The position numbers and the translations under genes are program-made. A stretch of DNA of 64,000 nucleotides, from assembly GCF_025685415.1 (NCBI RefSeq), contig NZ_JAGSYB010000001.1:2046001-2110000 (forward strand), given 5' to 3'. The stretch comes from Terriglobus aquaticus (lineage in GTDB: Bacteria; Acidobacteriota; Terriglobia; Terriglobales; Acidobacteriaceae). Under the pieces are notes generated by a model. It saw only the letters and a program-made list of their open reading frames with translations, did no database searches and was not told where the DNA came from. Below, piece after piece: positions 6,562-20,400 of this stretch; the stretch's first letter is position 1, and each line of letters starts with the position of its first letter.

Positions 6562-8061
<1,500 letters not shown>

Positions 8062-8422
8062 TCAGGGGTGCCACCTTCCCGTTGCGTCTGCCTCAGAGTC
8101 TCACGGGAAGGTCGGCCGGTGTGCAGCGGATTCGCGGAGACTTTCATGACTCGAACGCCGTGCAGCGCTCGTGCAGCCGCAGGAATGAGAGGCAGGAGTA
8201 GCCCTGGTGCGGTTGGGTCAGCGGCAGAGTGTGGCTTTTCTCCATCGCGAGGAACGGGAGCGTGAGGATGGGCGCGACAGGCGGGCCAGCGCGAGCCTGC
8301 AGCTTCGGAGCAGGCGGGAGCGGTGGGCAATGGGGGTGAGCGAGGTCTGCCTTTGGGAGATCTCCTGTTGCGTTTGGAGGAAGCAAAGACGGTACGGGAT
8401 CATGGGGCTCGCTTTCTGAGGG
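8062..8422. other. 361-base gap with no recognisable gene
   Basis: This lies between the aspartokinase stop and the GH1 start, both on the minus strand. Short open frames exist on both strands, but their translations are proline/arginine-rich and lack any known motif. None has a convincing start context. No terminator or riboswitch was recognised. Confidence 0.5.
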
Positions 8423-9874
8423 CTAGACCAGGTGCCAGGCCATGGCGTGTTCCCGCGCAAAGCCTGCGTCGGGGATTGCAGCCGCGGTTGCGGCGTTGTG
8501 CGGGAAGAACTCGGCGTGCAGCAGGCGGACGGCGTGGTCGACCTCTGCCTCGGTCAGCAGCAGGTTCATGCTGATGCGGTTCGCTCCGAGTGAGATCATG
8601 CCGACCTCGATCTCGCGAAGGCACTGCATGGCACGGGATGCGACACCCGGTCGTTCCTGAAAGTCCCCGACGAGACACACCAGCGCGCGCTTCGCTTCCG
8701 TTGCGACGTCAGCGAAGGCTTGGAGGTCCGGGACGATGGAGCTGAGATCTTCGGTCTGCTCCAGGGCGATGGAGATGCTTACCTCGCTACTAGCGAGCAT
8801 GTTGGCCGACGCTCCGTGGCGGTCGAGCACTTCAAAGACACGGCGCAGAAATCCATGCGACGCGAGAAGCCGTCGAGAGGTGACGTGCAGCACGGTCAAC
8901 CGCCGCTTGACGGCGATGCTGGTGAGCGCGCGGCCGGTGGCGGGCGGTGCCGCGGTGATCACGGTACCCTCGTTGGCCGGATCGCGCGAGTTCAAGACCC
9001 AGACGGGAACGCCCGTTTCGACTGCCGGAAGGATGGTTGCCGGGTGCAGAACCTTGGCGCCGAAGTAGGCCAGTTCCGAAGCCTGCTCGAAACTGATGGA
9101 GCGGAGGCGTGTCGCGTCGGGACAGATGCGCGGATCGGTGGTCATGACGCCGTTCACGTCGGTCCAGATCTCGATGGCGCTGGCGCGCAGGGCGCGGCCC
9201 AGCAGCGCCGCAGTGTAGTCGCTGCCGCCGCGGCCGAGCGTGGTGGTGATGCCGCCCGCGGTGGCGGCGATGAAGCCGCCGAGAATGGGAACAGCCTCTA
9301 CCTGCACGAGCGGAAGCACATGGGCCTGCGCCGCGGCGGCGATCAGGTCAGGCTGCGGTGTGGCGCGACCGAATCGATCGTCGGTGATGATGCAGGTGCG
9401 AGCGTCGACCAGGGCGCTGCTGATGCCGCGATGCTCAAACGCCTGCGCCACGATGAGCGACGAAAGCCGCTCACCAAAGCTGGCGATGAGGTCTGTGGTG
9501 CGGGCGGTCAGTTCGCCTACGGCGTTGATGCCGCCGAGCACGACATCGAGTTGCGCGAAGAGCGTGTCGAGATCGGCGAGGAGCGCAGGCAGCTTGCGAC
9601 CGACCAGGCCGGCTGCCACGTCGTGGTGGCGCACTCGCAACGCGGCGGTGAGCGCAACGGCGTCGGCCAGCCTGCCTTCGACGGCGTGCTGTGCGGCCGC
9701 GATTAGCTCGTCGGTGACACGGGCCATGGCCGAGACGACCACCACGGGACGCAACCTGCGATCGCGCCGGCCCTTGACGATGTCGATGGTGCGCTGGATG
9801 GCGGGAGCATCCTCAACCGAGGTGCCTCCGAACTTCATTACAACGAGCGGTCTACTTCCACTGTCGTCCGTCAC
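8423..9874 (-). CDS. lysC: Aspartate kinase
   Basis: Phosphorylates aspartate, the first step towards lysine, threonine and methionine. The kinase domain opens with VVMKFGGTSV (residues 11-20) and contains GGFIAATAGGITTTLGRGG-type and WTDVNGVMTTDPR motifs. Two C-terminal ACT domains (from about residue 310) fit feedback control by end-product amino acids. At 483 aa it is a monofunctional enzyme with no homoserine dehydrogenase fused. I chose GTG at 9874 because GGAGG sits 10 bases upstream and the protein then begins just before the conserved KFGGTS. An in-frame ATG at 9958 would add 28 unlikely residues. It stands alone, with no other lysine or threonine gene nearby. Confidence 0.93.
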   Translation of the reverse strand: MTDDSGSRPLVVMKFGGTSVEDAPAIQRTIDIVKGRRDRRLRPVVVVSAMARVTDELIAAAQHAVEGRLADAVALTAALRVRHHDVAAGLVGRKLPALLADLDTLFAQLDVVLGGINAVGELTARTTDLIASFGERLSSLIVAQAFEHRGISSALVDARTCIITDDRFGRATPQPDLIAAAAQAHVLPLVQVEAVPILGGFIAATAGGITTTLGRGGSDYTAALLGRALRASAIEIWTDVNGVMTTDPRICPDATRLRSISFEQASELAYFGAKVLHPATILPAVETGVPVWVLNSRDPANEGTVITAAPPATGRALTSIAVKRRLTVLHVTSRRLLASHGFLRRVFEVLDRHGASANMLASSEVSISIALEQTEDLSSIVPDLQAFADVATEAKRALVCLVGDFQERPGVASRAMQCLREIEVGMISLGANRISMNLLLTEAEVDHAVRLLHAEFFPHNAATAAAIPDAGFAREHAMAWHLV

Positions 9875-10011: not shown

Positions 10012-10440
10012 CTAGTTGGTCGAGTCGCGAAGCGCCTTGACGCGGTCGTGCGAGGCCTGGATTGAGGGCTGCTGCTGCAGCAGCACGGAGCGGACCGAGC
10101 CCGTGACCTCGCTGCTTTCCAGAGCTTCCTGGTAGGCCTTCTTGGCGGCATCTTCGCCCTGTTCCGCCGTCACCAGCAGCGTGTGATCGCCGCCGCCCAG
10201 ATTGGCTTTCAGGTCTCCCCAGATGCGGTGCGTGGTGCCGGAGACGGTTCCGCCAACATCTTCCGATAGGCCCGCGGCCGCGGCCACTTCGCGCGCGAAC
10301 GTCGCACGGGTCGAGGCTTCCTTGAGGAAGAAGCTCTTCGCCTCGGGATTCTTCAGGTGCTCACCGATGTCCGCATAGCCACGGGCACCATCGTTCAAGA
10401 CCTGGATCACAGTTTTTACAAGCGTACTCACTTCAGCCAT
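10012..10440 (-). CDS. DUF2383 (PA2169-like) four-helix-bundle protein
   Basis: A 142-aa soluble, mostly helical protein matching the DUF2383/PA2169 family (LNDGARGYADIGEHL near the N-terminus, HTLLVTAEQGED in the second half). Members are ferritin-like four-helix bundles of unknown biochemical role, often linked to stress or stationary phase. The start ATG at 10440 has GAGGAG 8 bases upstream. It is transcribed divergently from the type III PKS operon, so the 265-base gap may hold promoters for both. No metal-binding E/H pattern typical of true ferritins is evident to me. Confidence 0.8.
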   Translation of the reverse strand: MAEVSTLVKTVIQVLNDGARGYADIGEHLKNPEAKSFFLKEASTRATFAREVAAAAGLSEDVGGTVSGTTHRIWGDLKANLGGGDHTLLVTAEQGEDAAKKAYQEALESSEVTGSVRSVLLQQQPSIQASHDRVKALRDSTN

Positions 10441-10692: not shown

Positions 10693-10698
10693 TACAGT
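10693..10698 (+). promoter_or_regulatory. -10-like TACAGT just upstream of the PKS start (leaderless)
   Basis: A TANNNT hexamer ends 7 bases before GTG at 10706. There is no Shine-Dalgarno and no clear -35. The spacing places the transcription start at or next to the start codon. Confidence 0.45.
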
Positions 10699-10705
10699 GG
10701 GCGAT

Positions 10706-11779
10706 GTGTCAACCTCTGCGGACGCGTACCTTGCACGAATCTCAACAGCGGTGCCGCAGCACGAGGTACACGACGCATTCCTGAAGTTTGCGCACGGCAT
10801 GCTGCAGGACCCGCGCAGCCGCGCTCTGTTGCTGCGCATGGCGGAACGCGCCGGAATCGAGCGGCGATACTCGCCGCTGAGTGTCAGCGGGCCGAGCGAG
10901 AACGAGGTGGATGCCTATGCGCTCTATCGCCTGGGTAGCTTCCCTGCCACTGCGGAGCGCATGAGGCTCTTCAAGCAATTTGCTCCTGCGCTGATGCGGC
11001 GCGCCGTGAAAGGCCTGGCACTTTCCCCCGAGGAGCGGGCGCGGGTTCGCCATGTGATCGTGACCACCTGCACCGGCTTCTACGCGCCGGGGCTCGACTT
11101 TGACGTAGTGGACGCGCTGGAGCTGCACCCCGGCGTGGAGCGAACCATGCTCGGGTTCATGGGCTGCTATGCGGCGATCAACGGACTGAAGCAGGCGCGG
11201 CACCTGGTGCGTTCCGAGCCGGACCATGACGTGGTGCTGGTGAACCTGGAACTGTGTACGCTGCACCTGCAGGAGACGCAGGACCTGAACAAAGTGTTGT
11301 CGTTCCTGATCTTCGGCGATGGCTGCGCCGCGTCGCTGATCACGTCGAAGCCGGGCGGGCTTCGCATGGACAGCTTCAGGGCTGTGCGGCTGGAAGGCAC
11401 GGCCGACCTGATCACGTGGAACATTGGTGACCAGGGATTCGACATGGTGCTGTCAGGCCAGGTGCCTGCAGCGGTTGGCGATGCCCTGCGACTGCACCGT
11501 GAAGAACTGGTTGAAAACGAGACGACGCTCTGGGCCGTGCACCCCGGTGGCCGGTCGGTGCTGGATGCGGTGGAGCAGGCGCTGGATCTGCCTGCGGCCG
11601 CGATGGAGCATTCGCGGGCGGTGCTACGCGATCACGGGAACATGTCGTCGGCCACGGTGATGTTTGTGCTGCAATCGATCCTGCGTTCCGCTCGGGCTGG
11701 GGAGCACGGCTGTGCGATGTCGTTTGGACCGGGACTGACGGCGGAAACGATGCGATTCGTCGCGGCAGGAGTGCGATGA
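10706..11779 (+). CDS. Type III polyketide synthase (chalcone synthase-like)
   Basis: Homodimeric ketosynthase that extends an acyl starter with malonyl-CoA and cyclises it to a resorcinol- or pyrone-type ring. Counting from the upstream GTG at 10697, the triad is Cys157 (GFMGCYAA), His282 (AVHPGGRSVLD) and Asn315 (DHGNMSSAT). The CTGFYAPG strand is also conserved. The length, about 357 aa, is normal. I prefer GTG at 10706 over GTG at 10697 because a TACAGT ends 7 bases before it and the conserved AYLARISTAVPQHEV then lies near the N-terminus. The stop overlaps the methyltransferase start (ATGA). The starter-unit pocket cannot be read by eye. The dedicated ACP and ketoacyl synthase downstream suggest a fatty or short carrier-bound starter, as in alkylresorcinol synthesis (inference). 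Confidence 0.93.
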   Translation: MSTSADAYLARISTAVPQHEVHDAFLKFAHGMLQDPRSRALLLRMAERAGIERRYSPLSVSGPSENEVDAYALYRLGSFPATAERMRLFKQFAPALMRRAVKGLALSPEERARVRHVIVTTCTGFYAPGLDFDVVDALELHPGVERTMLGFMGCYAAINGLKQARHLVRSEPDHDVVLVNLELCTLHLQETQDLNKVLSFLIFGDGCAASLITSKPGGLRMDSFRAVRLEGTADLITWNIGDQGFDMVLSGQVPAAVGDALRLHREELVENETTLWAVHPGGRSVLDAVEQALDLPAAAMEHSRAVLRDHGNMSSATVMFVLQSILRSARAGEHGCAMSFGPGLTAETMRFVAAGVR

Positions 11780-12477
11780 CGTTTGACGAGCGCGCGCACC
11801 TGACGGAGCTCATGGATGAACCCTGCACCTATGAGGAGTTCCGTGCCTGCCTGAGCGACCTGGCACGCGTGAACCGGTGGACGCGTGCCTACCAGCCAAC
11901 GCTCGAGTGGCTGCAACAGGTGGTGCGGCCCGGCGCTGAACCGATTCACATTGTGGATGTGGGTTGCGGCGGCGGAGACATGCTGCGAGAGGTGGAGCGC
12001 TGGGCTGAGCGCGAAGGCATTGCCGTGATGCTGACGGGCGTCGACCTGAACCCGTATGCCGCGCGGGCTGCACGGGAGTTCACGCCTGCGGGGTCGCGCA
12101 TCGAGTGGGTCACGGCGGACGCGTTCTCATTTACGCCGCGCGCTCCCATCGATTGCGTGATCAGTTCGCTCTTCACACATCACCTGGGCGACGACGAGAT
12201 CGCAAACTTCGTGCGCTGGATGGAGCAGGTGGCGAGCCGCGGATGGTTTATCAACGACCTCCATCGCGAACGGGTTCCATACTTCGGATTCCAGGTGCTG
12301 GCGACCCTGATGCGCCTGCACCCATTTGTGCGGTCTGACGGACCGGTCTCCATCCGGCGGGCCTTCCGAGAGGACGATTGGAAGCGCTACCTGTCCGCGG
12401 GCGGTGTGAGCTTCGACTCCGTGCGTGTCCTGCCGTTTCGACCGGCGCGTCTGTGCGTTGCGAGGGTGAAGGCATGA
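11776..12477 (+). CDS. SAM-dependent class I methyltransferase
   Basis: A 233-aa methyltransferase. SAM motif I is VDVGCGGGDML, with the acidic motif II in LTGVDLNPYAA and a motif-IV-like ..IDCVISSLFTHHL. No membrane segment is seen. It sits inside the PKS operon with 4-nt ATGA overlaps on both sides, so it almost certainly modifies the same product. An O- or C-methylation of a phenolic ring is the simplest guess. The fold resembles UbiE/COQ5-like and Methyltransf_12/25 proteins, but acceptor specificity cannot be deduced. Translational coupling would keep its level tied to the PKS. Confidence 0.88.
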   Translation: MTFDERAHLTELMDEPCTYEEFRACLSDLARVNRWTRAYQPTLEWLQQVVRPGAEPIHIVDVGCGGGDMLREVERWAEREGIAVMLTGVDLNPYAARAAREFTPAGSRIEWVTADAFSFTPRAPIDCVISSLFTHHLGDDEIANFVRWMEQVASRGWFINDLHRERVPYFGFQVLATLMRLHPFVRSDGPVSIRRAFREDDWKRYLSAGGVSFDSVRVLPFRPARLCVARVKA

Positions 12478-13616
12478 TCGCGGATGAGGCTCCGCTGATA
12501 CTTGGCGGAGGTCCCGCGGGAAGCATGGTGGCGCTGAAGTTGGCGCGCGCGGGCCGGCAAGTGACGCTGCTGGAAAAGAGCAAGGAAGCACACGACAAGG
12601 TTTGCGGCGACTTCTTGAGCCGCGAGTCGCTGGGGTATCTCGAGAGCGTCGGGCTGTCTCCGGAGACGCTGGGTGCCGTGCCGATCCGAACCGTGCGCGT
12701 GGTCACGCCGAAGTTTCAGAAGGAGAGCGCGCTGCCCTTCCCTGCATGGTCGCTGACGCGGCGCGTGCTGGATGAAGCTCTGCTGACAGAAGCGGCACGA
12801 CAGGGTGCGGAGGTGGTGCGCGACGCGCACGTTGCATCGCTGCTGCACGAGGACGCTGCGTGGATTGCAGTGTTGCGCGACGGGCGACGATGGTGCGCGC
12901 GCAACGCCGTGCTGGCCACCGGCAAGCTGGACGTGAACGGGTGGCCGCGGCCGGAAGGAACGCAGCCGGGCCTGGTCGCGTTCAAGATGTACTTCTGCCT
13001 GAGCGAGGAGCAACAGACGGAGCTGGGCGACGCGGTAGAGCTGGCCTTCTATCCCGGCGGATATACCGGGTTGCAGCGCGTGGAAAGTGGCAGGGCCAAT
13101 CTGACTATCCTGGTGGATGGGAGACATCTGCGCGCGAGCGGATCGCAGTGGACCGCGGTGTTGCAATCGGTGCTGGACGCGTCGCCGCACCTGCAGCACC
13201 GGTTGAGAGGCGCGGTGGAGATGTTGCCTAAGCCGCTGACGGCTTCACGTATTCCGTATGGTCACGTGCAGCGCGACGGCGAGGATGGTTTGTGGCGAGT
13301 GGGAGACCAGGCCGCGGTGATTCCCTCGCTGTGCGGCGATGGGACGGCGATTGCTCTACACTGCGGAGCGCTGGCCGCGGCCTGCATGCTTCGCGGCGAC
13401 GGTGCCCCGGCCTACCAGCGCAGGCTGCACCGGCAGGTCTCGACGCGGGTAGGGCTGGCGACGGGGATCTCGCGGCTGATGGTCGGGCATCCGGCCGCAT
13501 CTGACTGCCTGCGGGTGTTTCCCGGCCTCCTGCGCACGGTGGCGATGCTGACACGGATCTCCGACAGCGCACTCGAGGAGACGCGGAAGATCGCCGAGCA
13601 GGCCACCAAGGGATGA
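12474..13616 (+). CDS. FAD-dependent oxidoreductase (geranylgeranyl reductase/hydroxylase-like)
   Basis: 380 aa from the ATG at 12474, which overlaps the methyltransferase stop. The FAD Rossmann motif LGGGPAGSMVALKLARAG and the following E (LLEK) are at residues 8-32, then CGDFLSRESL. The second FAD motif GDQAAVIPSLCGDG lies near residue 285. This arrangement is shared by geranylgeranyl-reductase-like and aromatic monooxygenase/halogenase-like flavoproteins. I see no halogenase WxWxIP motif. In the operon it would hydroxylate, oxidise or reduce the polyketide ring, for instance turning a resorcinol towards a quinone (inference). A longer open frame starting at 12378 would run back through the methyltransferase gene and is rejected. 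Confidence 0.87.
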   Translation: MIADEAPLILGGGPAGSMVALKLARAGRQVTLLEKSKEAHDKVCGDFLSRESLGYLESVGLSPETLGAVPIRTVRVVTPKFQKESALPFPAWSLTRRVLDEALLTEAARQGAEVVRDAHVASLLHEDAAWIAVLRDGRRWCARNAVLATGKLDVNGWPRPEGTQPGLVAFKMYFCLSEEQQTELGDAVELAFYPGGYTGLQRVESGRANLTILVDGRHLRASGSQWTAVLQSVLDASPHLQHRLRGAVEMLPKPLTASRIPYGHVQRDGEDGLWRVGDQAAVIPSLCGDGTAIALHCGALAAACMLRGDGAPAYQRRLHRQVSTRVGLATGISRLMVGHPAASDCLRVFPGLLRTVAMLTRISDSALEETRKIAEQATKG

Positions 13617-13619
13617 GCA

Positions 13620-13916
13620 ATGACTGACATCGAACAGGAATGCATTCGCCGCATTGCAGAGGCCAAGGGTCTTCCTCTGCATGCTGTCCACCTTGGCACG
13701 GCCCTGGACGCGATCGGAGTCGATTCGCTGGATCGCGTGAGCCTGTCGTTTGACCTGGAGGAGCAGTACGGGATCCAGATCCCCGAAAGCAAACTGCAGA
13801 GCATCCAGACGGTGGCCGACGTGGCCACCGCGGTGCAGGAGGCGATGCCCCGAACGGCTGGGGCAGGCGCGAAGGGCCCGGGACCCGATGGTGACGCCTC
13901 GGTTGGCTCCGCTTGA
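13620..13916 (+). CDS. Acyl carrier protein
   Basis: A 98-aa carrier protein with the phosphopantetheine attachment serine in GVDSLDRVSL (S36). The helical region is normal for an ACP (about 78 residues), followed by an unusual glycine/proline-rich tail (KGPGPDGD). It lies 3 bases after the oxidoreductase stop, and its TGA overlaps the TTG start of the ketosynthase, so it is locked into the operon. It is probably a pathway-specific carrier rather than the housekeeping AcpP, because no fab genes are near. No phosphopantetheinyl transferase is in the window. Confidence 0.93.
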   Translation: MTDIEQECIRRIAEAKGLPLHAVHLGTALDAIGVDSLDRVSLSFDLEEQYGIQIPESKLQSIQTVADVATAVQEAMPRTAGAGAKGPGPDGDASVGSA

Positions 13917-15127
13917 GGCGCGTTGTTGTCACCGGAGCGGGATGCATCAGCGCCATCGGGAACGATGTCGCTACCTTTGCGGAAAACCTGTTTGCCGGCA
14001 GGACCGGCATTGCCGACCTCACGGATTTCCCCGCGGGCGATCTGCGCTTTTCCAAGGTGGCGGCGGTTCGTGACTTTGTTGCGTCGGAGTGGGTGAGCGC
14101 GGCGCAACGGCAGGTTGCGGAACGCACCGCTCAGTTCGCGCTGGCAGCGGCGCGACAGGCGATCTCCGCTTCCGGGTTGTTGGCGAGCATTTCGGGCGAG
14201 GACGTGGCGGTGATCCTTGGCTGCTCCACCGGCGGCCGCACGGCGGAGGAGCCGGAGACGGCGAAGCTGTACACGCAGGGCGGACGCGTGCATCCGCTGA
14301 CCGTGCCACGCACCATGGCCAGCAGCGGCACCAGTCTGGTGTGCATGGAACACGGCCTGACCGGGCCGGCGTACACGGTCACGACAGCATGTGCGTCCGC
14401 GACGCACGCCATCGGGCAGGCCTTTCACATGGTGCGTTCGGGCACCGTGCGAGCGGCAGTGACAGGCGGCCATGAAGCTCCGCTGACCTACGGCTTTCTG
14501 AAGAGTTGGGACAGCCTGCACGTGGTCTCGTCGACGGTGTGCCGGCCCTTTGCGAAGGATCGGGACGGCATGACCCTGGGCGAGGGTGCCGCCGTGTTCA
14601 CGCTGGAGGCGATGGACGAAGCGGTGGATCGCGGAGCCACGATCCTGGCGGAAATTGTTGGCTTCGGCATGTCGTCAGACGCGAGCCACATCACGCAGCC
14701 GCACGCAGCCGGCCCCGCCGCCGCGATGACCCGCGCGCTGCGCGATGCAGGTGCGGCGGCGCAAGACGTTGGCTATGTGAATGCGCATGGCACCGGGACC
14801 GAAGCAAACGACCGCGTGGAGGCGCAGGCGCTGCTCGAGGTATTTGGCGAGGCCGGGAGGGAGCTGCCGGTCAGCTCTACGAAGAGCCTGCACGGGCACG
14901 CGATGGGAGCGTCTGGCGCGCTGGAGTTTCTGGCCACGTGCCTGGCGGTGCAGCGGGGCACAGCGCCCGCAGCTGTGCCGTGCGCCGAGCTGGACGAGGC
15001 TCTCGGACTGCGGGGAATCCTTCGCGAGAATCAGGCGCTGGACAAGCCGGTTGCGCTATCCAACTCGTTTGCGTTCGGAGGCCTGAACGGCGTGATCGCG
15101 GTGCGCCGATTCGAAGCGGGTTCATAG
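13913..15127 (+). CDS. Beta-ketoacyl-ACP synthase (FabF/KAS II-like)
   Basis: A thiolase-fold condensing enzyme of 404 aa. The active site is Cys160 (TTACASATHAIG), His292 (NAHGTGTEANDR) and His327 (KSLHGHAMGASG), the full Cys-His-His set of decarboxylating elongating synthases, with Lys324. It is not a chain-length factor because the cysteine is present. The start is TTG at 13913 in a TTGA overlap with the ACP stop, followed at once by RRVVVTGAG, the usual N-terminal strand. Together with the adjacent ACP it would build or select the acyl chain passed to the type III PKS. No ketoreductase, dehydratase or acyltransferase lies beside it, so reduction would have to come from the general fatty acid machinery. 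Confidence 0.93.
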   Translation: MRRVVVTGAGCISAIGNDVATFAENLFAGRTGIADLTDFPAGDLRFSKVAAVRDFVASEWVSAAQRQVAERTAQFALAAARQAISASGLLASISGEDVAVILGCSTGGRTAEEPETAKLYTQGGRVHPLTVPRTMASSGTSLVCMEHGLTGPAYTVTTACASATHAIGQAFHMVRSGTVRAAVTGGHEAPLTYGFLKSWDSLHVVSSTVCRPFAKDRDGMTLGEGAAVFTLEAMDEAVDRGATILAEIVGFGMSSDASHITQPHAAGPAAAMTRALRDAGAAAQDVGYVNAHGTGTEANDRVEAQALLEVFGEAGRELPVSSTKSLHGHAMGASGALEFLATCLAVQRGTAPAAVPCAELDEALGLRGILRENQALDKPVALSNSFAFGGLNGVIAVRRFEAGS

Positions 15128-15207
15128 GCCTGGATTCATTGGCGTGCTGTTGGACAGCTTCACACGCTGAAGAACGTTGCAGCCAGGAGAGAGCACGGCG
15201 ACGGCCT

Positions 15208-16641
15208 CTACGCTTCACCGTTGCGGCGAAGTTGCCGGCCTTCGCGAATCGTCTGCACGATGCCTCCCAGCCGGCGAGCGAATCCGCTGGCATACATGGA
15301 CCGCACCACGGCCAGCAGCAGACCAACCTGCGCGGGCCTGGGTTCGCCATAGTGCGAAAGCTTGGACGACCGCTGCACAGAGACTGTCTTGACCGCGGTC
15401 ATCTCCAGCAGACCCTCCGCGCCCTGGGTCGCGCCGAAGCCGCTGAGCCGGCGACCGCTGAAGGGAACACGCGGATCGGCTGACGGAAAGATGAGGTCGT
15501 TGATGAAGACGGAGCCGACCTCCAGCCGGTTCGCCAGCGTGCGGCACTCGTCTTCCCTGCCGAAGATCGAAGCCGTGAGGCCGAAGGGACATTGCTTCTC
15601 CGCAGCCAGCACCTCATCGATGGTGGCAGCGGGGATGAGCGTGATGACCGGCGCGAAGATGTCTTCCTGCGCGATGGCCATGGCGGCACTGCCGTTCTCG
15701 ACCAGGATGGGGCGGACACTGCCTTCCGTTTCGTCCTGGTGAATCATTGCGCCGCTGTCCGCGGCCTGCTGAAGCAGGCGGCTCAGGCGCTGGCGTGTTC
15801 CCTGCGCGAGGGCGACGGGAGCGATGGCGCGGAAGGCTTGGCGAAGTTGTTGCACAAGCTGCTGCGTCTGCTGCGCGGATGCACCCACGTAGAACAGCCG
15901 CCGCGGTGCCATGCAGGTGCAGGAGCCATTCAGCCGCATGCCAAAGCTGATCGCCCGCACCACGCGGCCGAGATCGGCCCCGGGGAGAACGATCACCGCG
16001 TCACAGCCGGAAAGCTCCACGACGGCCGGCGTGAGGTGGTCCGCCAACTGGTGCAGCAAGGCGCGACCGGACGTGGCAGAGCCGGTGAGAAATACCTTGT
16101 TGACGCCGCTGGCAATCGCCTGCTGTGCGGCGGCAACCGACTCGTCCGTGACGCGCAACAGGCCGTCTGGCAGGCCGGCACGCTGGAGGATGGCAGCAAA
16201 GCGGTTTGCGATCGCCGCGCCGCCGAGACCCGGCTTCCAGATGACCGCGTTGCCGGCCGCAAACGCCTGCACTGTCTGCACCCCGGGCAAGAACAACGGG
16301 TAGTTCGACGGCCCGATCACGAGCACGGTACCGAGCGGCACACGGAGGACTTCGCTGTGTACACCGCTCATCCACAGCGGCAGGCCCCGCCGGTTCGGCT
16401 TGCGCGGGCGCAGCAGCCGCTCCGCGGCGGTCTCCAGGTAACGCATGGCGGCCAGCAGCGGCAGCACTTCGGACGAAAGCGAGTCCAGCGGCACACGCGA
16501 GCCGGAACTGTCCTCGGCGAAGATAAGGTCCCGCGCGTTCTCAGCCAGGAGGCTTCGAGCGCGGGCCAGAACTTTGATTCGATCGCGGACTCGAAGTGCC
16601 GCCCACTGCTGCTGTGCCTGTGTTGCTTGTTCTTCGCCCAC
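15208..16641 (-). CDS. Aldehyde dehydrogenase family protein
   Basis: 477 aa, NAD(P)-dependent aldehyde dehydrogenase superfamily. The coenzyme region is seen in VIGPSNYPLFLPGVQ and VFLTGSATSGRALL. The general base glutamate is in VVELSGCDAV (ELGG in most members) and the nucleophile is one of the cysteines in NGSCTCMAPRR. The C-terminus carries FSGRRLSGFG. The start is GTG at 16641, with TAGCTT ending 6 bases before it and no Shine-Dalgarno. It converges on the PKS operon (80-base gap) and is the only other metabolic gene between it and the TonB receptor. It could act in the same pathway or on unrelated aldehydes. The altered motifs suggest a specialised subfamily. Confidence 0.85.
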   Translation of the reverse strand: MGEEQATQAQQQWAALRVRDRIKVLARARSLLAENARDLIFAEDSSGSRVPLDSLSSEVLPLLAAMRYLETAAERLLRPRKPNRRGLPLWMSGVHSEVLRVPLGTVLVIGPSNYPLFLPGVQTVQAFAAGNAVIWKPGLGGAAIANRFAAILQRAGLPDGLLRVTDESVAAAQQAIASGVNKVFLTGSATSGRALLHQLADHLTPAVVELSGCDAVIVLPGADLGRVVRAISFGMRLNGSCTCMAPRRLFYVGASAQQTQQLVQQLRQAFRAIAPVALAQGTRQRLSRLLQQAADSGAMIHQDETEGSVRPILVENGSAAMAIAQEDIFAPVITLIPAATIDEVLAAEKQCPFGLTASIFGREDECRTLANRLEVGSVFINDLIFPSADPRVPFSGRRLSGFGATQGAEGLLEMTAVKTVSVQRSSKLSHYGEPRPAQVGLLLAVVRSMYASGFARRLGGIVQTIREGRQLRRNGEA

Positions 16642-16749: not shown

Positions 16750-19700
16750 TTAGAACGTGTAATGCAGTTGAAGTTGAATGATGCGCGGCAGACTGCGCGT
16801 GTTGGTGATCTGGCCGAAGTTAGTGTCCGTCACCGTATTGTCGGGATTGCCATAGCTGGCGATGTTCAACGCGTTGAAGGCGTCCGCACGGAAGCCCAAG
16901 GCCTGCCGCTCGGTGATGTGGAAGTCCTTGAATGCGGAGAAGTCTACCTGGCGATAGCCGGGCGTACGCTCCGATCCCACAGCAGCGGTACCGAAGCTGT
17001 TTGGAAGCTCCGGACCATACGCGCAGGTGCCATTGAAGGAGCCAGTGCATGGTGTAGCGGACGGGTCTGTACCGAACCAGTTCTGCACAGTACGGTTGAC
17101 AACCCGCAGCTTGCGGTACTGGTTCGCCCGCTGCTGGCCGTAGCTGTTGGCATTACTGTTATCGGGCGAGTAGATCGTGATCGGGAAACCCGAGTAGATC
17201 GTCGCCGAAGAGGACACGGCCCATCCGCCCAACGCAAGGTCGACAAGGCGATTGGTCGAGTTACCGAACTGCTTGCCGCGCCCGAACGGAACCTCATACA
17301 GGACCAGTGCCGTGAAGTTGTGGCGCACGTCCGTTGCTGACGGGCCGTAGTCGGCGCGGCTGTTATACGCATCCTGCCACGCACCGTTGTGCACCTGGGT
17401 GTTGGCAGCACCATAGTTTCCGGCGCTATTGGTCATAGCACGGCTGTACGTGTAGTTGAGCGTGTAGGTGAAGCCGTACTCGCCGCGGTCGCGCAGTGTT
17501 GCTTGGCCGCCGTTGTAGTTCATCATGGCGTTCGATTCGGTGACCAGCAGCTTGGAGCCCTGCCCAACGAGCCCTGCGAACGGAGTGGTCGTTGCCGCTG
17601 TGACAGTTCCGCCGTTCTGGGCAAGCAACTGAATCTGCGCTGAAGTCAATTCGTTCGCGTTGCGGTAGTCCGCAAGGTGCTGACCGGTTTCGCCAACGTA
17701 ACTCACGGCGAGCGAGAGCTTGTTGTTGAGCTCGTACTCGGTCGTCAGATTGAACTCGTGCAGATACGCAGGACGAATGTGCTGCGGCCACGCACCGAAG
17801 CTGGCACCGCCGGTGTTGATGCCGTTGATGCTGAAGCCATTGGCGGCGTGGATGGGAGCACCGGGGCTGTACGCGATGTTCGCGGCCGGATCTGCAGCGG
17901 TGGGCGTCGCTGCATTTGGCTGCGAGTACACCAGAAACGGGCTCTGGTACGTGAGGCGCTGGTTGTTGGCATCGCCTTCGAAGAAGCTGGTAGTGCCGTA
18001 GCCGCCGCGGAAGACAAGGCGCTGCTTGGCTTGATAAGCAAAACCGAAGCGCGGCTGAATCTGGTCCGTCGTGGGCTGGTAGCACGAGATGTTGTCGCAC
18101 ACGAGCGAGCCCGCCGGAGCTCCGTTCGGAACGGAACCGGCATACTCCACCTTGCCCATGTTGGGACCGTCCAGCAGAACGTTGGCGGTCTTGTTGTTGA
18201 CCTCGTTCCAGCGCTGGTCGTACTCGTAGCGGACGCCGAAGTTCAGGGTCAACTTGTCCGTGGCTTTCCAGTCATCCTGGAAGAAACCTGCGGTCCGCCA
18301 CTGCCGGTTGCCGACCAGGCCGCTGCCGCCAGGGATGGCGATGCTGTCCTGGTTAGCGCGATCCAGAACGAAATCAGCACCGCTGTAGCCAGTGTCGGTG
18401 CCGTTCGGGCCGGTGAAAATGCCGTTGTAATTGAACTGTCCTGTGGAACCCTGTGCGCCAGACAGAGCATAGTTCTGCTGATAACGGATCGCCTGTACGC
18501 CCACGCTGAAGGTGTGGCGACCGTGTTGGATGGTCAGGTTGTCGTAGTACGAGAAGGTGTTGTCGCGCAGGATCTGCGGCGCGCCTGGCGAGCCGATAGA
18601 GCTGAAGTTGTCGCCGATGCCCTGGTTGGAGAAGCCCACGTACTGCTGGGTTCCGAACGGGATGCCGACGACCTTGTTTCCTGTGAGGCCAAAGACGCCG
18701 GTGGGGTCGGTGGGTACACCCTGATCCCAACGCACGCGCAGGAAGCCGACCCGGGCTTCGTTCACGATGGTTGGCGAGAAGGTGTGGACCCAGGAGGTGC
18801 CAAACATCTTCGTGGGAAACGAGTTCTGTGAGGGGAAGCTGAGCGCGAGCACGGCGACGTTGCCGTCATACGCGTCAGACTGCGCGTAGAAGCCTGTGAT
18901 TTTATCTTCCGCGCGGGGATCCCACTCGATCTTCACGTCGCCCTGATTGCTTGCGAGAAAGGTCCGGGTCGGTCCTACGAAATTGTTCTGCACCAAGCCG
19001 TCGACCGGGGTGGCGTTGGGCAGCGGGTACAGCTCAGGATGGGCAAACAAGTAGCGGGCCACTGGGCTGACGATCGGCACCTGATTGTTGACGTAGGGAG
19101 CGAAGTTGTTCTGCGTGTCGTAGAGCTGCTTGGGCACGGCGGAGAAGTCGCCGTTGCGCATCGCCTGCGTGAAGACGCTGGCGGTGCCGGTACCGCCCTG
19201 GTGGCGGCGATTGCCTTGGTAGTCCACGAAGAAGAACAGCTTGTCGCGCTTGATCGGGCCACCAAAGGTGCCACCGAACTGTGTCTGCGTGAACGGATTG
19301 ATGGGCTGGATGTCCGCCGGGTTCGGGTGATTCTTGTTGGCCCAGGAGTTGGCGTTCAGCTTGTCGCTTTCCAGGTAGGCAAAGGCCGAGCCGTGGAACT
19401 GGTTGGTGCCGCTCTTCAAGATGCTGACGATGTCGCCGCCGTTGACGTTGCCATAGCTGGCGGGCGCATTGGCCGTGATCACGCGCACTTCGGCAAGCGC
19501 ATCGGGCGACGGGTTGTAGCCGATCAGGTTGTTCTGACCTTCGTTCTGATCGATGCCGTCGAGCGTGTAGTTGTTTGCTTGGGCGCGGTTGCCGTTTACG
19601 GCGACGATGCCGTTGTTGTACGTGTTGCGCTCCAGCGCGTTGCCGCCGGTCAGGCCGCCAGGATCGGTGTTGACCGCGCCGGGCTGGAAGAGAGTGACGG

Positions 19701-20169
19701 AGGAAAAGTTGCGACCGTTGAGCGGAATGGTGGCGATCTGCTGTTCGGACAGCGACAGGCCGATGGTGCCGTCGGAGGTGTCCAGGATGGGCTGCGTCGC
19801 CGCGGTGACATCTACCGTGGTGCTTGCGTTCACGGTCACGTGCGCGTCGATCTTGGCGACTTGACCGATTTCAAGCTGGAACTGCGGCACGGTCAGCGGA
19901 GCGAAGCCGGTGGCCTCGACCTCCACGCGATAGGCGCCGATGGGGAGAAAGCGGACCGAGTACACACCAGCATCGTTACTGGTGGCCGGAGTTCGGACGC
20001 CGGTCGTGACGTTCACTACCGTTACGGTCGCGCCGGGTACCGCGGCACCACTCGGGTCAAGAACCGTACCCGTGACCGTACCGGTAACCGTTTGCGCTTC
20101 CGCTGCCGCAAACGACATACAGGCCACCGCTGCCAGCGACCAATACCTTGTTGCTCTTCCAAACTGCAT
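16750..20169 (-). CDS. Oar-type TonB-dependent outer-membrane receptor
   Basis: A 1139-aa outer-membrane protein. A signal peptide (1-25, ...AAAEA|Q) precedes a carboxypeptidase-regulatory-like domain (about 28-110, TVLDPSGAAVPGATVTV). A plug-like region (NGRNFSSVTLFQPG) and a large beta-barrel follow, ending in an aromatic LHYTF as barrel proteins do. Acidobacteria carry many such Oar-like receptors, thought to import oligosaccharides or other large nutrients. I chose ATG at 20169 (MQFGRATRYW) because GGAGG lies 8 bases upstream; the longer frame begins with a TTG that overlaps this Shine-Dalgarno. It is divergent from the GH13 alpha-glucosidase, which suggests glucan or alpha-glucoside uptake, but this is inference. 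Confidence 0.93.
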   Translation of the reverse strand: MQFGRATRYWSLAAVACMSFAAAEAQTVTGTVTGTVLDPSGAAVPGATVTVVNVTTGVRTPATSNDAGVYSVRFLPIGAYRVEVEATGFAPLTVPQFQLEIGQVAKIDAHVTVNASTTVDVTAATQPILDTSDGTIGLSLSEQQIATIPLNGRNFSSVTLFQPGAVNTDPGGLTGGNALERNTYNNGIVAVNGNRAQANNYTLDGIDQNEGQNNLIGYNPSPDALAEVRVITANAPASYGNVNGGDIVSILKSGTNQFHGSAFAYLESDKLNANSWANKNHPNPADIQPINPFTQTQFGGTFGGPIKRDKLFFFVDYQGNRRHQGGTGTASVFTQAMRNGDFSAVPKQLYDTQNNFAPYVNNQVPIVSPVARYLFAHPELYPLPNATPVDGLVQNNFVGPTRTFLASNQGDVKIEWDPRAEDKITGFYAQSDAYDGNVAVLALSFPSQNSFPTKMFGTSWVHTFSPTIVNEARVGFLRVRWDQGVPTDPTGVFGLTGNKVVGIPFGTQQYVGFSNQGIGDNFSSIGSPGAPQILRDNTFSYYDNLTIQHGRHTFSVGVQAIRYQQNYALSGAQGSTGQFNYNGIFTGPNGTDTGYSGADFVLDRANQDSIAIPGGSGLVGNRQWRTAGFFQDDWKATDKLTLNFGVRYEYDQRWNEVNNKTANVLLDGPNMGKVEYAGSVPNGAPAGSLVCDNISCYQPTTDQIQPRFGFAYQAKQRLVFRGGYGTTSFFEGDANNQRLTYQSPFLVYSQPNAATPTAADPAANIAYSPGAPIHAANGFSINGINTGGASFGAWPQHIRPAYLHEFNLTTEYELNNKLSLAVSYVGETGQHLADYRNANELTSAQIQLLAQNGGTVTAATTTPFAGLVGQGSKLLVTESNAMMNYNGGQATLRDRGEYGFTYTLNYTYSRAMTNSAGNYGAANTQVHNGAWQDAYNSRADYGPSATDVRHNFTALVLYEVPFGRGKQFGNSTNRLVDLALGGWAVSSSATIYSGFPITIYSPDNSNANSYGQQRANQYRKLRVVNRTVQNWFGTDPSATPCTGSFNGTCAYGPELPNSFGTAAVGSERTPGYRQVDFSAFKDFHITERQALGFRADAFNALNIASYGNPDNTVTDTNFGQITNTRSLPRIIQLQLHYTF

Positions 20170-20400
20170 TTGCACTGCCTCCAAAAAGGGACTGCTCGAT
20201 CGTTGTGTTCACACAGAAATGCCTTCCCGAATCAGGGAAGGAGTGAAGGATCCGTCTGTGCGGATATCTTCCGGAACGGCCCGAACTATGCTCGGAGCCG
20301 ACGAGAGATTAGACGGCACGATCGGCGTCGAAGTTTCTCTTTCCCGACGTGCAAGCCCGGGGTCCTTCGCCAGCATGACGATGAACGGACGCTGCTTTGT

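Follow-up and report, generated by a model that had tools for sequence, protein, structure and literature searches.

A type III polyketide synthase operon of Terriglobus with its own acyl carrier protein and ketoacyl synthase: a candidate phenolic-lipid pathway

How bacterial type III polyketide synthases (T3PKSs) acquire their acyl starters, and choose among them, is still mostly an open question, and the use of an acyl-ACP has been reported for a few enzymes (available parts of PMC6274091 and PMC8086630). The locus analyzed here lies in a 64,000-nt stretch of Terriglobus aquaticus DNA (the window), and raises this question in a compact form: what are an acyl carrier protein (ACP) and a FabF-type ketoacyl synthase (KS) doing in one operon with a T3PKS, a methyltransferase (MT) and a FAD-dependent oxidoreductase (FAD enzyme)? 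We consider it probable (roughly 0.6) that the operon makes a phenolic lipid, in which the ACP and KS would build the acyl starter for the T3PKS and the ring would then be methylated and oxidized. The literature searched yielded no description, for Acidobacteriota or for sphingomonads, of a T3PKS accompanied by an ACP and a FabF-type KS, nor any paper joining type III PKS, Novosphingobium and acyl carrier protein. A compact natural set of a T3PKS and a private ACP/KS pair, with matched relatives that lack the pair, makes the role of the carrier testable by comparison. The set also draws attention to a lipid family of soil acidobacteria and sphingomonads that is still unexplored, and may provide a small cassette for setting the tail length of engineered phenolic lipids.

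The operon and its neighbourhood

The plus-strand order T3PKS-MT-FAD-ACP-KS was confirmed, as were the positions of all six open reading frames, including the convergent aldehyde dehydrogenase (Table 1). Adjacent genes overlap by 4 nt (ATGA, ATGA and, for ACP/KS, TTGA), apart from a 3-nt gap between the FAD and ACP genes. The first-pass annotation had described a tight unit of five genes with intact catalytic residues, and this description was borne out: the reading frames and all four junctions were reproduced, Pfam and NCBIfam agree on the families, and the T3PKS Cys-His-Asn, the ACP phosphopantetheine site (Ser36, in a GVDSLD motif) and the KS Cys-His-His triad, intact as in FabF (motifs KSLHGH and NSFAFGG), were all found. 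That the five genes form one operon-like unit is supported. For the T3PKS, the GTG at 10697, in the same frame, is another possible start.

Table 1. Position and family evidence of the five operon genes and the convergent gene.
Product	Length (aa)	Coordinates	Strand	Remarks
Type III polyketide synthase	357	10706..11779	+	GTG start; Pfam PF02797/PF00195 above cut-off
Class I SAM methyltransferase	233	11776..12477	+	Pfam Methyltransf_25; NCBIfam
FAD-dependent oxidoreductase	380	12474..13616	+	Pfam FAD_binding_3
Acyl carrier protein	98	13620..13916	+	PP-binding 41.3 bits, cut-off 20.8
FabF-type ketoacyl synthase	404	13913..15127	+	TTG start; Pfam, NCBIfam
Aldehyde dehydrogenase, convergent		15208..16641	-	Pfam Aldedh; judged outside pathway

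The neighbours scanned with Pfam between 4.3 and 22.2 kb are the aldehyde dehydrogenase, a DUF2383 protein, an amino-acid kinase, a GH1 protein, an M61 peptidase, an alpha-amylase and an outer-membrane beta-barrel protein (16750-20184). As had been proposed, no ligase or acyltransferase is among them; the parallel claim for a transporter stands for this interval unless the barrel is one. The aldehyde dehydrogenase was considered as a pathway gene and rejected, because it seldom lies close to the operon in relatives: a match was found in one of the 16 orthologous loci (L043, 30% identity, more than 7 kb from the T3PKS) and in none of the 80 best loci from named genomes, and a single 296-bit match was seen in locus L264, about 5.4 kb from the T3PKS. 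It is probably not part of the pathway.

A conserved core and a recurrent ACP-KS pair

All five genes are kept in the same order in 9 of the 16 orthologous loci, which is more than chance would give. A tenth locus (L038) carries the ACP-KS pair and is without the FAD match only, so that the pair is present in 10/16 loci and was not seen in the other six. The ACP/KS overlap is 4 nt in nine of the ten called pairs, that of the window included, and 10 nt in L046. The co-occurrence of the five genes in relatives, which the first-pass annotation had put forward as a check, therefore holds, and the clade to which the KS belongs is also linked to T3PKSs in two genera. The 80 best loci from named genomes, three of which are shared with the orthologous set (L031/L078, L033/L079 and L041/L084), gave a FAD match in 72, an MT match in 51 and both in 48 (window proteins as queries, E<=1e-2; a contig end counts as a miss). 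The ACP-KS pair is present in two of them, both Terriglobus; it was not seen in the other 78, some of them on short contigs. The full set of five is present in Terriglobus roseus DSM 18391 (L031/L078). Locus L142 has an ACP-like match and no KS, and in relatives another 24 neighbourhoods around distant T3PKSs (L047-L070) gave no KS match. As judged by eye, there is no clear excess of genomes in the rest of the family in which an ACP-KS pair co-occurs with an unlinked T3PKS. Since the pair was not seen at many T3PKS loci, the T3PKS core works without it. On these comparisons T3PKS-MT-FAD is a widespread conserved core, and ACP-KS an add-on without which many relatives do. The five-gene pathway originally proposed is to be read accordingly: its members co-occur, but it is rather a core of a known kind plus an ACP-KS add-on.

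In the KS tree, the window KS falls in a clade of 31 sequences (support 100/100), 29 of which lie within 9 kb of a T3PKS; one exception, L190, lies on a contig of 3.2 kb whose start is within the MT gene. This clade spans Terriglobus and a sister genus, g34, and accompanies two non-orthologous T3PKSs, the Terriglobus type and a PKS11-like one in g34 (L187, the sole g34 T3PKS so compared, scores 326 bits to PKS11). In sphingomonad plasmids, ACP-KS stands directly before the T3PKS in five of the seven loci opened. The KSs of these plasmids form a separate clade (100/100), so that the recruitment of the pair looks independent. Judged from these trees, the linkage has apparently been repeated independently, and a functional tie between the ACP/KS pair and the T3PKS is very likely.

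The sampling behind the trees was as follows. Identical or contained sequences were removed, and the T3PKS tree was thinned of rows more than 82% identical (124 to 92). Among the 127 T3PKS-bearing genomes, 80 were searched for KSs, 10 fell within an earlier KS search and 37 were left out, and G566, with KS and T3PKS on different contigs, was left out of the KS tree. Some group labels of the first KS tree mislead, since duplicates took the place of labelled copies (the window KS appears as L219); the later KS tree is the one to be used. In this later tree, the second, FabF-like KSs of L279, L280 and L284 were counted as T3PKS-linked by distance, and the group labelled 'hk' contains L218, the motifs of which differ from those of FabF-like KSs.

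Another reading of the pair is that it serves general membrane fatty-acid synthesis as a spare FabF/AcpP, standing in the operon only for shared regulation, while the T3PKS draws on the general pool of acyl-CoA or acyl-AcpP. A general role is possible in that NCBIfam scores the KS as FabF-like but below the cut-off of the housekeeping FabF equivalog TIGR03150 (369.8 vs 493.75 bits); most T3PKS relatives show no ACP-KS, and in other members of the family and class related ACP-KS pairs occur with no T3PKS alongside. The genome, however, already has a FabF-like KS (C1:3273663) beside an ACP (C1:3275024), as well as a third KS, the operon ACP being one of four PP-binding matches. Moreover, the KSs that are linked to a T3PKS group in a clade of their own, which spans two genera and two types of T3PKS, and the linkage recurs in sphingomonads with another KS branch. 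We therefore regard a membrane role as unlikely.

The position aligned with FabF Ile108 was compared among the KSs. It is Thr in the window KS, and small in all 36 KSs of the clade of 31 and the sphingomonad group (A/T/C in 31/31 and S in 5/5, respectively), whereas it is large (V/L/I/F) in 14 of the 15 nearest related KSs and Ile in 8/8 FabF-like KSs. Four further KSs that adjoin a T3PKS break this pattern, with Leu in L188 and L292, Val in L189 and Ile in the FabF-like L293, and the KS of L198 has Thr, yet no T3PKS is nearby. A placement of the window KS with NodE was dropped, no NodE-named model being among the NCBIfam matches listed. Tentatively, and at somewhat less than even odds, ACP-KS may be a transferable starter-building cassette that has served two non-orthologous T3PKSs, with a second version assembled independently in sphingomonads and the KS acyl pocket opened at the FabF Ile108 position in both. 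If this were so, the T3PKS would escape the general acyl pool by means of a private carrier docking on it, and would dictate its own tail, be it longer, branched or still beta-keto.

Acyl supply and ring chemistry

Only two PF00501 (AMP-binding) matches were found in the genome, one acetate-CoA-ligase-like and one FadD-like (calls made on partial stretches, both below NCBIfam cut-offs), and neither is near the operon. The idea that loci lacking ACP-KS are supplied by a clustered acyl-CoA ligase was rejected, since the two ligases of the genome match only 4 of 121 T3PKS loci, and these matches are weak (27-29% identity). Two of the four, L103 and L267, the latter listed among the 12 alphaproteobacterial loci, are the same record. 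The initial premise that type III PKSs need no ACP proved too general for bacterial enzymes. An ACP-bound chain is fed to the T3PKS in the case of germicidin synthase, SCO7671 and the cylindrocyclophane enzyme CylI (PMC6274091, PMC8086630). With these precedents in addition to ars, a direct transfer of the acyl group from carrier to T3PKS is plausible.

In the proposed pathway, the dedicated KS would lengthen a fatty acyl chain, attached to the dedicated ACP, by condensing it with malonyl units, and the other steps of fatty-acid synthesis would be borrowed from the cell. Once finished, the acyl group would leave the ACP for the catalytic cysteine of the T3PKS; this enzyme would add malonyl-CoA units and close the ring by aldol cyclization, most likely to a 5-alkylresorcinol. 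The MT would then methylate the ring, and the FAD enzyme would oxidize it toward an alkyl-hydroquinone or quinone. The operon carries no ketoreductase, dehydratase or enoyl reductase, as would fit a KS that makes an unreduced 3-oxoacyl-ACP which is handed on as such, the KS providing the first ketide and the T3PKS the rest; a beta-ketoacyl-ACP starter for a Streptomyces coelicolor T3PKS is in print (cited in PMC6274091). The free-standing reductases of the cell could nevertheless act on the ACP, and the chains used by germicidin synthase are short to medium (PMC6274091), whereas here the residue aligned with the tunnel Cys205 of PKS18 (C184) is kept. Such a split of the ketides is quite unlikely in our view.

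The T3PKS has the chalcone/stilbene synthase fold and the Cys-His-Asn of a type III PKS; its AlphaFold model has a mean pLDDT of 91, and the 50 Foldseek matches listed for it are type III PKSs, as judged by title or by named chain. In 43 aligned sequences Cys154 and Asn312 are invariant, as are W238 and M247, and His279 is conserved in at least 90%. The closest solved sequence among the matches listed is PKS18 (142.8 bits), an alkylpyrone synthase. W238 is presumably the equivalent of ArsB Trp281, a mapping made by spacing and CHS numbering; ArsC (3VS8), through which a PDB alignment was sought, is not among the 60 matches listed in one T3PKS search or among those listed in another. ArsB Trp281 and ArsC Gly284/Met293 are reported to bear on cyclization (PMC6274091). 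In the alignment the pyrone synthase PKS11 also has Trp at the W238 position, and hence this residue does not settle the ring type. The product class, which the first-pass annotation had left between resorcinol, pyrone and quinone lipids, is narrowed only slightly, toward resorcinol-type cyclization, by the indirect evidence of Trp238/Met247.

The MT shares 35% identity over 187 aligned positions with its counterpart in a planctomycete MT-FAD-T3PKS operon, and is likely a ring C- or O-methyltransferase. The FAD enzyme, which matches NCBIfam TIGR02032 and QhpG, both below the cut-offs, belongs to the geranylgeranyl reductase/monooxygenase superfamily and is likely a ring hydroxylase. Alternatively, the product could be an alkylpyrone lipid, with the MT and FAD enzyme modifying a pyrone or resorcylic acid. 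The proximity to PKS18 and the Trp shared with PKS11 argue for this product, while the W238/M247 pattern, the homology with the planctomycete-type operon and a FAD enzyme that suits a phenol argue against it; on balance a pyrone is rather unlikely, and we retain the phenolic lipid.

Comparison with known systems

In rhizobia, NodF and NodE, a private ACP and a private KS of the FabF type, shape the acyl chain of a single special lipid, the other fatty-acid-synthase enzymes being those of the cell. No Nod-factor genes were seen here, and the likeness is in arrangement only. Germicidin synthase (Gcs), SCO7671 and the Cyl system (CylB/CylD/CylH-CylI) share with our proposal a T3PKS fed by an ACP-bound chain, but Gcs and SCO7671 were shown with hexanoyl-ACP and CylI is fed through type I PKSs, unlike here. 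For Gcs, SCO7671 and CylI, a free-standing ACP and FabF-type KS in the same operon are not described in the available text of the sources.

The ars operon of Azotobacter vinelandii (ArsA-D) likewise joins acyl-supply machinery and T3PKS. ArsD is a multidomain FAS protein; as was noted at first pass, genes of this kind are absent from the present operon, whose ACP and KS are separate single-domain proteins. ArsA is also multidomain, and acyl groups pass directly from its ACP domain to ArsB/ArsC (PMC6274091), whereas here the single-domain ACP and KS are joined by MT and FAD genes. Related Acetobacteraceae T3PKSs are reported to have about 29% identity to ArsC and their closest sequences in Azospirillum, Methylopila, Microvirga and Paracoccus (PMC8776678, in its available part).

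The nearest parallel to the core is given by the hidABC-type operons (MT, oxidoreductase and T3PKS), known for the cyanobacterial hierridins and in 58 planctomycete T3PKS operons; T3PKSs from planctomycete MT-FAD-T3PKS operons yielded alkylresorcinols upon expression in C. glutamicum (PMC10896814, available part). Here, too, a class I MT, a FAD oxidoreductase and a T3PKS are in one operon, and the T3PKS carries Met where CHS has Phe265, a feature reported for HidC and its clade (PMC8086630). Identities to the proteins of the Paludisphaera (planctomycete) operon are 35% for the T3PKS, 29% for the FAD enzyme and 35% for the MT. The hidABC-type order is MT-oxidoreductase-T3PKS, whereas here the T3PKS comes first; a hidC-hidA-hidB order also exists (PMC8086630), so that gene order may not be essential. 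What this operon has in addition to the hidABC type are the ACP and KS genes.

Gene content of the operon and its Terriglobus orthologues

The first-pass annotation had described five plus-strand genes and a convergent aldehyde dehydrogenase, and its positions agreed exactly with our re-reading of the sequence. Pfam and NCBIfam bore out the families it had assigned, i.e., a type III polyketide synthase (T3PKS), a class I methyltransferase (MT), a FAD oxidoreductase (FAD), an ACP, a FabF-type ketoacyl synthase (KS) and an aldehyde dehydrogenase. The predicted structure of the T3PKS (mean pLDDT 91; input alignment of 43 sequences) had solved type III PKSs among the structural matches listed, and PKS18 was the closest solved sequence among the sequence matches listed (142.8 bits). 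The host genome is 4.16 Mb in size.

Coordinates of the operon genes and of single features observed near it or in other fetched loci
Feature	Location	Position	Strand	Remark
DUF2383 gene	window	10012-10440	-	divergent, upstream of operon
T3PKS	window	10706-11779	+	
MT	window	11776-12477	+	
FAD	window	12474-13616	+	
ACP	window	13620-13916	+	
KS	window	13913-15127	+	
Aldehyde dehydrogenase	window	15208-16641	-	convergent
ACP-like match	L142	1798-2037	-	35% identity; just upstream of alphaproteobacterial T3PKS, divergent
Cyclopropane-fatty-acyl synthase family gene	L273 (Mesorhizobium sp. INR15)	7990-9264		after T3PKS-MT-FAD
Two FabF-type KS genes	L271 (genome of L148, Mesorhizobium caraganae record)	G121:C89:4694-8344		~1.3 kb apart; KSxHAH motifs in both

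T3PKS orthologues (57-71% identity) were found in 15 of the 18 congeners searched and in one other genome of the family. Downstream of the T3PKS-MT-FAD core, the ACP-KS pair was present in ten of these 16 loci, nine of them with the complete five-gene set, and absent in six. The ACP-KS-bearing locus that gave no FAD match (L038, G015:C407) reads T3PKS-MT-ACP-KS, with ~85 bp between the called MT and ACP genes; the missing match is either a deletion or an assembly effect. In three of the six loci without ACP-KS (L039, L043 and L044) two other genes separate MT from FAD, and a YceI-like gene comes after FAD (Pfam run on L039). In a 17th congener (G009) only the MT-FAD-ACP-KS end was visible, on a contig of 3.2 kb.

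Distribution of the core and of the ACP-KS pair

Among named genomes, the best 80 loci (identity 53-70%) came from Acidobacteriota, from Alphaproteobacteria (e.g., Mesorhizobium, Methylobacterium and Azospirillum) and from a small number of records with other labels. With the window proteins as queries, FAD was detected in 72/80, MT in 51/80 and both in 48/80, and ACP-KS in two, both Terriglobus (L078 and L079); L142 had an ACP-like match and no KS. A set of 385 alphaproteobacterial genomes, sampled separately, yielded T3PKS matches at E<=1e-80 in 13. Twelve of these loci were fetched, one of which (L267) duplicates the record of L103; MT and FAD were present in 11, and KS was absent from all 12. 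The cyclopropane-fatty-acyl synthase gene of L273 hints at varied tail chemistry next to the core.

A T3PKS was present in 127 of the 396 genomes of the phylum searched, and KS was searched for in 80 of these 127. By coordinates, KS and T3PKS lay <=9 kb apart in 19/80: 17 of the 20 genomes of the sister genus g34, along with G776 and with G636, whose KS is FabF-like. When a KS search of 120 relatives was set against the T3PKS search, and the loci were fetched and checked, G051, G098 and G086 proved to carry a KS next to a T3PKS of another, distant type. Including G051 brings the g34 count to 18/21; 24 other fetched neighbourhoods of distant T3PKSs (L047-L070) gave no KS match. The g34 T3PKS is PKS11-like in the one tested (L187), and the cluster consists of a TPR-like protein, T3PKS, FAD in some species, then ACP and KS, with SpoIIE-like and glyoxalase-like genes inserted in some clusters. 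In L278-L285, from several g34 genomes, the ACP and KS genes are separated by genes for, among others, a SpoIIE-domain and a glyoxalase-like protein; some of these loci also have a second KS, of the FabF-like type (motif YVGSGIGA), close to a GT2 gene.

In a KS tree of 71 rows, 12 Terriglobus-type and 19 g34 KSs formed one clade (support 100/100), and 29 of these 31 have a T3PKS within 9 kb. The exceptions are L190, whose contig starts inside the MT gene, and L294, with the T3PKS 153 kb away; G566, outside this tree, is probably a further exception. Comparative genomics gives good support to the ACP-KS/T3PKS link, with the KS very likely a partner of the T3PKS.

Related genomes also have KS genes that share 45-50% identity with the window KS, with no T3PKS match nearby and varied neighbours (L191-L202; an ACP match adjoins the KS in 11 of the 12, L202 being the exception). 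In a different family of the class, the same conserved genes surround an ACP-KS pair at four loci (L203-L206).

Seven of the 17 sphingomonad plasmid loci listed were opened; ACP-KS directly preceded T3PKS in five and was absent from two. The Sphingobium yanoikuyae locus has all five genes in one run, and the four Novosphingobium loci with ACP-KS have T3PKS-FAD together and MT divergent upstream. The KSs of these five loci share 39-41% identity with the window KS, from which the window genome's own FabF-like KS (38%) is hardly farther, and the KS trees place them in a clade of their own on a long branch. In the T3PKS tree, 11 of the 18 rows of the Terriglobus clade (99/94) are ACP-KS carriers; the others make up a single five-member sphingomonad clade (100/95) and three rows of the distant T3PKS type. 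From these sequences, the sphingomonad ACP-KS looks to have been recruited independently of the Terriglobus-g34 version.

Pocket and tunnel residues

At the KS position aligned with the Ile of FabF GSGIGG, which we take to be Ile108, all 31 members of the clade have A, T or C and all five sphingomonads S. Among the 15 nearest related KSs, 14 have V, L, I or F (including the T3PKS-adjacent L188, L189 and L292, with L or V) and one T (L198); I occupies it in 8/8 comparison FabF-like KSs and in the T3PKS-adjacent L293. In Bacillus subtilis FabF, the I108F change is reported to put a residue into the acyl pocket (PMC3996569). The small residue fits a pocket that is wider or longer in the two main groups linked to T3PKS, a reading that does not extend to all T3PKS-adjacent KSs. 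In the window T3PKS, C184 aligns with PKS18 Cys205, which PMC6274091 describes as a tunnel residue and which is mutated in 1TEE (C205F). W238 and M247 do not vary across the 43 sequences and are spaced like ArsC 284/293 (PMC6274091).

Accessory genes and the proposed pathway

YceI is a lipid-binding family, and a YceI gene occupies a position similar to that of DUF2147 in three loci. A DUF2147 gene adjoins the operon at seven Terriglobus-type loci that have ACP-KS (L031, L032, L033, L035, L037, L038 and L046), at four acidobacterial ones that lack it (L045, L088, L109 and L123) and at three in sphingomonads (L209, L212 and L214); Pfam was run on three of all these loci. Near the window operon there was no DUF2147 match within 8-18 kb. 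The DUF2147 protein may be secreted and bind the product, and a secreted lipid carrier is plausible as a shared element of these T3PKS loci.

The operon most likely encodes a phenolic-lipid pathway, in which the private KS would build a starter on the private ACP, the ACP-bound starter would be handed to the T3PKS, and methylation and oxidation would follow; the handover and the product are what we infer. The Paludisphaera MT-FAD-T3PKS operon, of the planctomycete type treated in PMC10896814, showed gene-by-gene homology to the window core. The T3PKS-MT-oxidoreductase operon type is known, and what is new is its variant with a recurrent acyl-supply cassette.
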